Below are positions 1-48,603 of a stretch of 64,000 bases of DNA, in pieces. The notes beneath the pieces were generated by a model. That model worked only from the letters and a program-made list of their open reading frames with translations, was not told the DNA's origin and did not search any database. The stretch is taken from positions 74,501-138,500 of the forward strand of contig JAAXIF010000020.1 in the NCBI GenBank assembly GCA_012270485.1, written 5' to 3'. Both the position numbers and the translations under genes were made by a program. Source of the DNA: Sphingobacteriales bacterium. Lineage in GTDB: Bacteria > Bacteroidota > Bacteroidia > Chitinophagales > Chitinophagaceae. Positions within the stretch are counted from its first letter, which is position 1. Every line of letters starts with the position of its first letter.

Positions 1-208
1 TAGGGTAAAAAATAAGATTACGCTAATCAGTGATAATCCACAGTATGAGCCCTACAATGTAAATTCAGAAGATGTGTTGGAAGTATGGAAAGCTGTCTAT
101 ATTCTTCAAAAAGCCAATGCCGGTCCTCGATGGGACGTTAATCAATTGGCAGGTATGGTCAATAACTTACAGGAACAAGTGAGTACTTTGAAAAAGAAAC
201 TGAATTAA
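1..208 (+). CDS. C-terminal fragment of a CDS cut by the window edge, possibly S24/LexA-like HTH regulator
   Basis: Frame from nt 2: RVKNKITLISDNPQYEPYNVNSEDVLEVWKAVYILQKANAG...LQEQVSTLKKKLN*, TAA at 206-208; the N-terminal half resembles the end of XRE/S24 peptidase-like regulators. Confidence 0.5.
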   Translation, partial: RVKNKITLISDNPQYEPYNVNSEDVLEVWKAVYILQKANAGPRWDVNQLAGMVNNLQEQVSTLKKKLN

Positions 209-220
209 AATAGCTTTCAA

Positions 221-256
221 GAGGCTGTATCAAAAGTCCGATACAGCCTCTTTTTA
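221..256 (+). terminator. Rho-independent terminator inside the 109-bp element
   Basis: GAGGCTGTATC-AAAAGTCC-GATACAGCCTC followed by TTTTTATT. Confidence 0.8.
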
Positions 257-329
257 TTCGGGTACCTGATGGAGAAAGTTTTCATTTAGGCGATTCTCAA
301 AGCCTTCTTTTTACTTTTGAGACTTCCTC
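221..329 (+). mobile_element. 109-bp MITE-like element, copy A
   Basis: Identical over 109 bp to the reverse complement of 48488-48596; ends GAGGCTGTATCAAAAGT / ACTTTTGAGACTTCCTC form 17-bp TIRs (14/17 match). Confidence 0.75.
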
Positions 330-404
330 TTTTCTTGTTCCGTCTGTACAATTTTAATGTCATCGCAATCTGATTCCGCTATTTTTGCGGCACTTTTTAT
401 TTAC

Positions 405-2858
405 ATGAAGACATTGCTGCTATCTATTGCTTGCTCATTGACTAGTTTTTTGTTCGCTCAGGAACGAGGTCTCAAAGCTTTAAAAATTGATGTACCCATT
501 AAAATAGACGGTCAGTTGGATGAATCCATCTGGAAAGAAGCAGCGGCAGCAGAAGATTTTATTTTGAATAGTCCCAAATTTGGTGATCCTGCCAGTCAGC
601 GTTCAGTTGTCAAAGTACTGTACAGCGATCAGGCCATTTATGTTGGGGCGTATTTATATGATGAGCCATCTCTGATTCGTAAACAATTGACCTCACGTGA
701 TGGAGAACAACGCAATGATGTTGATTATTTCAGTGTTTTCTTTGACACATACAATGATGATCAGAACGGATTTCAATTCCTTGTTACATCACGAAATGTA
801 CAATCAGATGGTCGTTTATTGCCGAATTTGAATTCTCAGTTTGGTCCTCCCTCAGATTATAGTTGGGATGCTGTTTGGGAAAGTAAAGTACAAATACAGA
901 AAGATGGTTGGACGGTAGAAATGAAAATACCTTATTCTGCACTTAGATTTTCACAAAAAGAGATACAAGACTGGGGCGTGAATTTTCAACGATACAGTAG
1001 ACGAAACAATGAGAGTTCATTTTGGAATAAAATTGATCCCAATCAAAACGGGTTTGTGAATCAATTTGGAAATTTACAGGATATAAAAAATATTGTTCCT
1101 CCCTTACGATTATCTTTTCTTCCTTATGTCACTGCCGGTACGCGGATTGTTCCTTATGCCAATGGTAAAACCAAAACAGAATTTTTACGAAATGGAGGAA
1201 TGGATCTCAAATACGGTATCAATGAGAGCTTTACCTTGGATGCAACACTGATCCCTGATTTCGGACAAGTGATCTCTGATAATGTGGTACTCAACCTTTC
1301 TGCATTTGAAGTTCAGTTTCAAGAGAACAGACCTTTTTTTACAGAAGGAATCGAGTTATTCAATAAGGCGGGATTATTTTACTCCAGAAGGGTAGGGAAT
1401 ACTCCCGCGGGATACAATGCAATCAGGAGTATGGTGAACAATAATCCGAACCTGAATATTATTTCTAATCCAGGGATTACACAGTTGTACAATGCATCCA
1501 AATTTTCCGGAAGAAATAAAAAGAAATTGGGTATCGGTGTATTCAATGCAATAGGTGCGCCTATGCATGCTGTAATTGAAGATAAGACCACCGGTAAACA
1601 AACAAGAATTGAAACTGAGCCGTTGGCTAACTATAATATTTTTGTTCTGGATCAGGCATTGACGAATCGATCTTCTATAACGTTTACCAATGCCAATGTA
1701 TGGAGAAGTGGAGGTAGTAGAAATTCGAATGTGAGTTCCATGGATGTGAACTTATTTGATAAAAATAATCGAACGAACTTCAAATGGAGTGGTAGGTTCA
1801 GTCATATTACAGGTAAGGAAAATTACAATGGATTCACGAATGTATTATCGTATGGAAAAGTAAGTGGTAGAATTCAGTACCTGTTTCAGAATGTCATTGA
1901 ATCCGATCGATATGACCCCAATGATCTCGGCTTTTTGCAAGCACCCAATGAAATTACTGCTACTGCACGTTTGAGTTATAATCAATTTACACCTACTAAA
2001 AAATTCCTGAGCTACAACTATAGTCTTACCCTGATTCCTACTTATTTGTATAAGCCCAATGCCTATTCCAATTTTATCATTCAAACAAGGGCTTTCTGGT
2101 TTTTCAAAAATTTCTGGGACCTGAGTATCAACTTCAATTGGCAACCCGACTGGCAACGCGATTATTTTGACTTGCGTACCCCGGGAAGAATGATCCGTAA
2201 AACACCTTATTGGTATACCGGTGTGAGTGGAAGCAGCGATAGTCGAAAAAAATATTTTTTCAGATTTAATCTCGGCTTTGCAGAATCGCCCATACCCAAT
2301 GATCCTTTTATTGTGACCGGTATAGGGCAACGATATCGTTTTAATGAACATTTTAGTTTGGATATTGAAACAAGGCGTGATCGTGACAACGGACAGTTTG
2401 GTTATGCCTACAGAGATACCAATGGAGAACCCGTCGCAGGTAGAAGAAAGATTACCAACTTTACTACGCTCATCAATGGTGTTTACAACTTTACTCCCAG
2501 AATGAATCTCACTTTACGTACACGCCATTACTGGAGTCAGGTTCAATACGTCAGCTTTTTTGATGTTACATCCGATGGATGGCTTACTCCAAGACCTTTT
2601 ATTTCGAGTAGAGATCAAAACTTCAATGCTTTCAATATGGATATGTTCTATACCTGGGATTTTAAATATGGTAGTCGGTTTATTATTGGGTGGAAGAATT
2701 GGTTAGGTACAGATTTTCCGATATCAGGAACTTCACACAAGAGTTATGTAGATAACCTGCGACAAGTATTTCAGCAGCCATTGGGTAATGAGATTACATT
2801 TAGACTCATTTACTTTATTGACTATCTCACCTTACAGAAAAAGAGAAAAGATATTTAA
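405..2858 (+). CDS. DUF5916 domain-containing protein with N-terminal CBM9-like domain
   Basis: ORF 357-2858; start refined to MKTLLLSIACSLTSFLFAQ (signal peptide); IDGQLDESIWKEA and outer-membrane-like C-terminus. Confidence 0.8.
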   Translation: MKTLLLSIACSLTSFLFAQERGLKALKIDVPIKIDGQLDESIWKEAAAAEDFILNSPKFGDPASQRSVVKVLYSDQAIYVGAYLYDEPSLIRKQLTSRDGEQRNDVDYFSVFFDTYNDDQNGFQFLVTSRNVQSDGRLLPNLNSQFGPPSDYSWDAVWESKVQIQKDGWTVEMKIPYSALRFSQKEIQDWGVNFQRYSRRNNESSFWNKIDPNQNGFVNQFGNLQDIKNIVPPLRLSFLPYVTAGTRIVPYANGKTKTEFLRNGGMDLKYGINESFTLDATLIPDFGQVISDNVVLNLSAFEVQFQENRPFFTEGIELFNKAGLFYSRRVGNTPAGYNAIRSMVNNNPNLNIISNPGITQLYNASKFSGRNKKKLGIGVFNAIGAPMHAVIEDKTTGKQTRIETEPLANYNIFVLDQALTNRSSITFTNANVWRSGGSRNSNVSSMDVNLFDKNNRTNFKWSGRFSHITGKENYNGFTNVLSYGKVSGRIQYLFQNVIESDRYDPNDLGFLQAPNEITATARLSYNQFTPTKKFLSYNYSLTLIPTYLYKPNAYSNFIIQTRAFWFFKNFWDLSINFNWQPDWQRDYFDLRTPGRMIRKTPYWYTGVSGSSDSRKKYFFRFNLGFAESPIPNDPFIVTGIGQRYRFNEHFSLDIETRRDRDNGQFGYAYRDTNGEPVAGRRKITNFTTLINGVYNFTPRMNLTLRTRHYWSQVQYVSFFDVTSDGWLTPRPFISSRDQNFNAFNMDMFYTWDFKYGSRFIIGWKNWLGTDFPISGTSHKSYVDNLRQVFQQPLGNEITFRLIYFIDYLTLQKKRKDI

Positions 2859-14679: not shown

Positions 14680-14732
14680 TCGATAGACCATAGTCGATAG
14701 TCCATGGACCATGGTCTATCGACTATGGTCTA
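14677..14732. repeat. Heptad-word palindrome filling a convergent gap
   Basis: TAGTCGA TAGACCA TAGTCGA TAGTCCA TGGACCA TGGTCTA TCGACTA TGGTCTA; 24-bp arms (14684-14707 / 14709-14732) with one mismatch. Confidence 0.9.
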
Positions 14733-26645: not shown

Positions 26646-26682
26646 GAGGTTGTATCAAAAATCGGATGCAGCCTCTTTGTTT
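26646..26682 (+). terminator. Terminator hairpin of the GAGGCTGTATC family (ssb)
   Basis: GAGGTTGTATC-aaaaatcg-GATGCAGCCTC-TTTGTTTT. Confidence 0.75.
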
Positions 26683-26685
26683 TAT

Positions 26686-26731
26686 CATCGACTACGGACC
26701 ATAAGCCATGAACCATACGCGACCAACCCAA
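26686..26731. repeat. Heptad-word repeat
   Basis: cat cgactac ggaccat aagccat gaaccat acgcgac caaccca. Confidence 0.55.
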
Positions 26732-26822
26732 TCTCAAGTTGCTTATTTCACTTCTGAGGCACCCAATTTATATGTTCAATTAATTTAATTTATTGATTAT
26801 TTGGTAGTTATCATGCAAAAAA

Positions 26823-46587: not shown

Positions 46588-46625
46588 GAGGCTATATCAA
46601 AGTATTGATACAGCCTCTTTTTTTT
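46588..46625 (+). terminator. Terminator hairpin of the GAGGCTGTATC family (clpB)
   Basis: GAGGCTATATC-aaagtatt-GATACAGCCTC-TTTTTTTT. Confidence 0.85.
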
Positions 46626-48475: not shown

Positions 48476-48487
48476 AAATGAAAGGAT

Positions 48488-48596
48488 GAGGAAGTCTCAA
48501 AAGTAAAAAGAAGGCTTTGAGAATCGCCTAAATGAAAACTTTCTCCATCAGGTACCCGAATAAAAAGAGGCTGTATCGGACTTTTGATACAGCCTC
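48488..48596 (-). mobile_element. 109-bp MITE-like element, copy B (inverted)
   Basis: Reverse complement identical to 221-329 over all 109 bp. Confidence 0.75.
48567..48596 (-). terminator. Terminator in copy B serving the NIPSNAP gene
   Basis: On minus strand GAGGCTGTATC-AAAAGTCC-GATACAGCCTC followed by TTTTTATT, about 7 nt after the stop at 48604. Confidence 0.8.
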
Positions 48597-48603
48597 ATCT
48601 TAT

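Follow-up and report, generated by a model that had tools for sequence, protein, structure and literature searches.

Some mobile elements are known to target DNA hairpins. In staphylococci, IS1272 and TnSha1 of the IS1182 family target inverted-repeat hairpins that have no sequence consensus and several of which are terminators; the stem-loop is wholly or partly removed by a blunt deletion and no target site duplication (TSD) is made (PMC5678879, PMC4923244). The SPRITE repeats of Streptococcus pneumoniae are terminator-like and are enriched at the 3' ends of genes and between converging genes; their terminal inverted repeat (TIR) is described as only AAAA/TTTT and no TSD was found (PMC3049150). 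In the Bacteroidota, BrickBuilt and other MITEs of Porphyromonas gingivalis are intergenic and have TIRs that match those of resident insertion sequences (IS) (PMC4596501). A search of the open-access literature, with subscription papers outside its scope, found no IS1182-derived MITE of the kind described below, and open-access work on MITEs and on Bacteroidetes or Chitinophagaceae terminators held no direct match.

The window (the whole 64,000-nucleotide stretch of Chitinophagaceae DNA analysed here) contains two copies of a 109-bp element. As the original prediction had stated, positions 221-329 are the exact reverse complement of 48488-48596, and a repeat search returned them as 109-nt arms with 100% complementarity. 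The 17-bp inverted repeats, 14/17 identical in the source genome, are likewise as described; perfect 18-bp TIRs exist in some copies of a relative (G193), and the window has 5 occurrences of the TIR pattern where 0.14 would be expected. The ends of the element are GAGGCTGTMTCAAAAG, and the left one forms a predicted terminator hairpin. With 109 bp and no ORF of at least 60 aa overlapping 221-329, the element has the dimensions of a MITE (50-1000 bp, no transposase gene). A search of the window against Rfam found no family. Copy 1 starts 12 nt 3' of a stop codon (ORF end 208), and copy 2 has the end of a minus-strand gene (48604) at 7 nt on one side and that of a plus-strand gene (48475) at 12 nt on the other; in both, the hairpin end is oriented toward the 3' end of a gene. 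The spacing of 7-12 nt after a stop codon and the common orientation that had been reported stand, with the small correction that copy 2 is flanked by two converging genes and so lies downstream of both. The features are the following:

219-220, no strand: AA, left foot of the terminator stem replaced at copy 1, with its partner TT at 330-331 (sister species: CAA, AGCCTGTGATCCAATATCACAGGCT, TTTTCTTG)
221-329, plus strand: element copy 1 (109 bp), its left end, with the hairpin, being at 221 (14 full copies in the genome; empty site in a sister species)
221-255, plus strand: left TIR and predicted intrinsic-terminator hairpin of copy 1, stem 221-231/240-250, T tract 251-255 (folding, terminator scan, compensatory changes)
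313-329, minus strand: right TIR of copy 1, GAGGAAGTCTCAAAAGT (sequence; similar to IS1182-family ends)
26646-26764, plus strand: decayed copy with its left hairpin at 26646-26675 and a recognisable right end (85% over the hairpin; right-end motif AATCTCAAG...TTCTGAGGCACCC by eye)
46588-46617, plus strand: either a remnant reduced to the hairpin or a terminator that resembles it (83% over the leftmost 40 bp of the element)
48485-48487, no strand: GAT, left foot of the stem replaced at copy 2, with its partner ATC at 48597-48599 (sister species: GATAGCCTGATA...TATCAGGCTATC or AATAGCC...GGCTATT)
48488-48596, minus strand: element copy 2 (109 bp), its left end, with the hairpin, being at 48596 (reverse complement of copy 1 at 100%; three sister species have the empty site)
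48488-48504, plus strand: right TIR of copy 2 (identity with copy 1)
48562-48596, minus strand: left TIR and predicted terminator hairpin of copy 2, with its T tract (identity with copy 1)

The whole source assembly (4.04 Mb, 108 contigs, 99.55% complete) contains 14 full-length copies: 8 are identical, 4 have one substitution and 2 share the same 4-bp insertion. A 15th copy is 76% identical, and at some 15 additional loci the match is confined to the left hairpin (~30-39 bp), although a decayed right end can be recognised at some of them. Since the sequences outside GAGG...CCTC are unrelated between copies, the element is not part of a longer duplication. Thus, neither of the two outcomes that would have spoken against a mobile element, a lone pair of copies in the genome or an ordinary longer duplication, was encountered. 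The identity of the two window copies had been attributed to recent spread or conversion; spread is upheld, but conversion is not needed, because the unrelated flanks and the empty sites presented below show transposition. One locus (L025, G000:C101:58537-58587) is a 51-bp internally deleted derivative that has kept both ends.

The copies were aligned with their flanks in search of TSDs and empty sites, as the original prediction had proposed. None of the 100 copies with distinct flanks has a TSD of at least 3 bp, and none of the TSD lengths from 1 to 11 bp rises above chance. The duplication by which many MITEs are recognised is thus missing, an absence that is expected if the element behaves like IS1272. 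The two flanks of a copy are complementary to each other across the element above shuffled pairings (mean run 1.95 vs 1.35 +/- 0.10, 0/2000 shuffles, 100 copies), which we read as the trace left by insertion into hairpins. At one copy (L007) the complementary run reaches 14 bp, with TTCAGTACAAAAA on the left and its complement on the right, and both outer flanks of an IS1182 copy (L220) are GTGGCACACCTATAG read inward.

A genus-wide search (147 genomes) for the surroundings of copy 2 gave species with 79-90% identity there. Where the window has GAT, the element and ATC, the sister species G403, G404 and G426 have a stem-loop, AATAGCCTGATA...TATCAGGCTATT or GATAGCCTGATA...TATCAGGCTATC, and G411 has yet another hairpin. 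For the other 13 copies of the genome, the joined flanks were searched in the three sister species; 10 could be aligned across the junction and a different terminator-type stem-loop is found in the sister at every one of them. All the alignable copies (11/11, both window copies included; L008, L010 and L014, which gave no junction alignment, are outside this count) therefore correspond to a different terminator stem-loop in species without the element at that site. At copy 1 the sister reads CTTTCAA, AGCCTGTGATCCAATATCACAGGCT, TTTTCTTG, and the window CTTTCAA, element, TTTTCTTG. L004 has replaced a stem that reads AGCCCCGAAA...TTTCGGGGCT in the sister, and its flanks match up to the stem foot, as do those of L006, L009, L011 and L012; the flanks near the stem are more diverged at L003, L005, L007 and L013, where the breakpoint is less exact. 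The element occupies the place of the replaced stem-loop, usually with the outermost stem pairs alone retained. In most of the 11 cases two or three sister species have the same stem sequence at the site, and since it is shared in this way the replaced stem represents the ancestral state. Moreover, a perfect 9-bp stem is present within 70 nt of 24.5% of 110 control stop codons (long ORFs, same genus), so 11/11 is not expected by chance. The 11 alignable sites thus all display what is known from IS1272: a stem-loop target, partly deleted, and no TSD.

One could consider instead an ordinary TIR-bearing MITE of an unrelated DDE family, with a preference for AT-rich intergenic DNA and a proximity to terminators that results from selection against insertions into genes. 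The copies are indeed located behind genes and bordered by A and T tracts, as is the case for many MITEs. Yet, selection on position cannot explain a stem-loop that is missing exactly at the insertion in 11/11 sites, and neither the lack of a TSD in all 100 copies nor the match of the ends to IS1182 (see below) agrees with such a family. We consider this explanation very improbable.

Other dispersed repeats occur in the same surroundings. Clusters of CCATGGACTATGG-type half-palindromes (e.g., TTTAGTCAATAGACCATAGTCCATGGTCCATGGACTATGGTCTATTGACTAAA; window 14702-14714) are found in the flanks of L003 and L016-L030 of the source genome, in many cases next to or within decayed copies of the element, and they are abundant in G403, G404 and G426. 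Another dispersed palindrome, TTCGCCGGACTAAAGTCCGGCG, lies in the right flank of L009 and is common in the same three species (joined-query positions ~1838-1875).

As RNA, the left end of the element folds into an 11-13-bp stem with a T run behind it (-21.5 kcal/mol when the foot is included, z -8.5), and it is the only terminator-like site in window positions 1-1000. By its sequence, a GC-rich stem and then a T run downstream of genes, it has the features of an intrinsic terminator. Across 30 diverse copies, 97.3% of the stem cells are paired, 22 stem cells are double-changed against a shuffled mean of 6.6, and the covariation score is 0.270 vs 0.133 when shuffled. The folding and the compensatory changes agree with the terminator hairpin that had been proposed for the left end; since the stem overlaps the TIR, a part of these changes may reflect recognition by the transposase and not termination. 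The position of the copies speaks for termination: the gene on the left is directed at the element in 79/100 copies and the gene on the right in 72/99, with the gene end usually 5-50 nt away (simple ORF calling). When copies of the source genome lie between co-directional genes, it is mostly the upstream gene that reads the hairpin and then the T run (one copy is reversed), and two more copies follow tRNA genes (by eye). Given the compensatory evolution of the left hairpin in different genera and the location of most copies behind genes, the element probably restores the terminator that it deletes. The suggestion that it inserts at, or carries, terminators holds in both senses: an existing terminator hairpin is replaced and another, predicted one is carried in the left TIR.

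The proposed comparison of the ends with IS families leads to a single clade of the IS1182 family. The NF033551 (IS1182) elements of Chitinophagaceae relatives have GAGGCTGTCTCAAAAG ends at both sides, often with a hairpin and then a T run, and the left ends of the MITE match IS ends over up to 38 bp at 95%. In a tree of 36 IS1182 transposases, the 21 whose elements carry this TIR all fall inside one 23-member clade (support 98/99), the other two members of which (L217 and L229) were scored as lacking it; the 13 proteins outside the clade all have other ends. The sharing of ends with IS that encode an IS1182 transposase is thus clade-specific. MITE variants ending in GGGGCTGACC or GGGGCTGACT have IS1182 counterparts with the same ends (L235 and L234), so that variation in the TIR runs in parallel in MITE and IS. 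TIR-matching IS1182 elements are also present in congeners of the species analysed here (L297, L298, L299 and L308). In the source genome itself (G000) there are 0 matches to an IS1182 transposase (NF033551 at E <= 1e-10, PF13751 at E <= 1e-3); therefore, the mobiliser is deduced from the relatives and may have been lost or be unassembled. A non-autonomous element does not need a transposase gene in its own genome, from which the source may have disappeared. The middle ~50-bp core of the MITE has no match beyond the ends in 30 IS1182 loci; hence, the element did not arise from the examined IS by simple internal deletion. The original description as a non-autonomous element is therefore retained and made more precise: it is IS1182-related, devoid of TSDs, and replaces its target rather than plainly inserting. 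In G296, a MITE (left flank of L139) and an IS1182 copy (right flank of L237) are both placed at the foot of one repeated sequence, which ends in CGACTAAATTGGAC; this suggests a target preference shared by both.

A REPIN-like element moved by a Y1 (RAYT/TnpA-REP) transposase would also have hairpin ends and no TSD, and the genome does encode two Y1 proteins. Nevertheless, both are of the IS200 type (126 and 82 bits vs a cut-off of 55) and far under the REP-transposase cut-off (23 and 35 vs 80), and neither gene is flanked by the repeats of the element as a RAYT gene would be; REPIN membership was consequently rejected. Since the protein encoded by the IS that shares these ends belongs to the IS1182 family, a REPIN origin is very improbable. 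Just as improbable is an immobile sequence, such as a host terminator or RNA that is conserved and kept uniform by gene conversion, which would fit the compensatory upkeep of the hairpin and the abundance of hairpin-only relatives but neither the copies with sharp edges at GAGG...CCTC in loci that have unrelated terminators in the sisters, nor the presence of the same termini on a transposase-bearing IS.

The hairpin pattern is also present in Chitinophaga, Niastella, Sediminibacterium and further Chitinophagaceae, where most matches run on into the same core; the exact pattern was not found in IMG/VR viral contigs. With one such copy as query, related ~109-bp elements were detected in 51/297 sampled Chitinophagaceae genomes and 29/104 genera. 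A deeper search of 20 of the matching genomes gave up to 32 matches each and revealed genome-specific subfamilies; together with the 14 full copies and the remnants of the source genome, these numbers are those of a dispersed MITE. Full copies in the family mostly measure 104-113 bp, typically 109, and have the consensus GAGGCTGTATCAAAAGTACGATACAGCCTC-TTTTTATTCGGGTACCTGATGGAGACnGGTnnTCGTTTAAGCGATTCTCAGnGCCTTCTTTTATTTTTGATACAnCCTC. Partial matches were considered as candidate autonomous IS and rejected, all of them being ~100-110 bp variants. Two subfamilies exist side by side in G193 (L189-L201), one with the left terminator hairpin GGGGCTGACCAAAAAGTACTGGTCAGCCC and the other with an 18-bp TIR free of mismatches and an inner hairpin of another sequence, ACCCGTTTTTATACGGGT; therefore, the TIR hairpin is not obligatory. 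In L188 (G193:C1:1544440-1544624) and L190, the right flank passes straight into the core of another copy, AATTTATTCGGCTACCTGATGG; such fused or tandem elements are what would be expected if the element also targeted its own hairpin.

We estimate at roughly 90% the probability that the element is a 109-bp non-autonomous MITE that is moved in trans by an IS1182-family transposase, replaces stem-loops and carries a stand-in terminator. The sequences themselves establish the dispersal, the IS-like ends, the lack of TSDs, the replacement of stem-loops at 11 sites and the compensatory evolution of the hairpin. An IS1182-family transposase would recognise the GAGGCTGTMTCAAAAG ends and mobilise the element in trans, and its target would be a stem-loop rather than a sequence, as for IS1272; the commonest intergenic stem-loops are intrinsic terminators. 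Upon insertion, the inner stem and the loop of the target are deleted, the outermost pairs (usually A and T tracts) remain and no target duplication is made. The stem-loop and T run of the left TIR would then put a working-looking terminator where one was destroyed. This swap probably makes insertions nearly neutral, and the hairpin would persist after the rest of the copy decays. A broader hypothesis, to which we give even odds, is that of a terminator that spreads by itself: an IS1182-driven MITE lineage would keep overwriting Chitinophagaceae terminators with its own hairpin; the stem would coevolve with the TIR that the local IS1182 clade recognises, and the remnants would stay as ordinary terminators. 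In that case, some of the terminators of a genome would derive from transposons, and SPRITE-like repeats in other bacteria, whose ends are AAAA/TTTT, may have arisen likewise. These results suggest that the turnover of terminators between species is partly driven by transposition.

As far as open-access papers show, the kind of mechanism is known from staphylococci and its gene-less, terminator-carrying and family-wide version in the Bacteroidota is undescribed. BrickBuilt is, like the 109-bp element, an intergenic Bacteroidota MITE with IS-matching TIRs, but these belong to other IS groups, TSDs exist in 3/4 intact copies, it has an internal minisatellite, and at least one copy left the neighbouring terminator intact (PMC4596501). 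The likeness to SPRITE, compared by published description alone, is one of function; AAAA and TTTT ends could be what a replaced terminator leaves behind, and the 109-bp element provides a testable way to account for dispersed repeats that resemble terminators and, like SPRITE, had no explanation for their mobility. The Chitinophagaceae IS1182 elements (NF033551; e.g., L227, L235 and L297) have the same TIRs as the MITE and, in many cases, the same end hairpin and T run, but they measure ~1.7-1.9 kb, encode a transposase of ~480-550 aa and have an interior without match to the MITE core. Finally, the hairpin targets, the deletion of the stem-loop and the lack of TSDs are shared with IS1272/TnSha1. 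Contrary to these elements of the Firmicutes, which have a transposase gene (TnSha1 reaches 3 kb), the 109-bp element is gene-less, belongs to the Bacteroidota and has a predicted terminator inside its own end. Stem-loop-replacing transposition, described for IS1272/TnSha1 of staphylococci, is thereby extended to another phylum and to an element that has no gene, with empty sites resolved to the base, and a simple reason for the success of this element would be that terminators are swapped, not broken.
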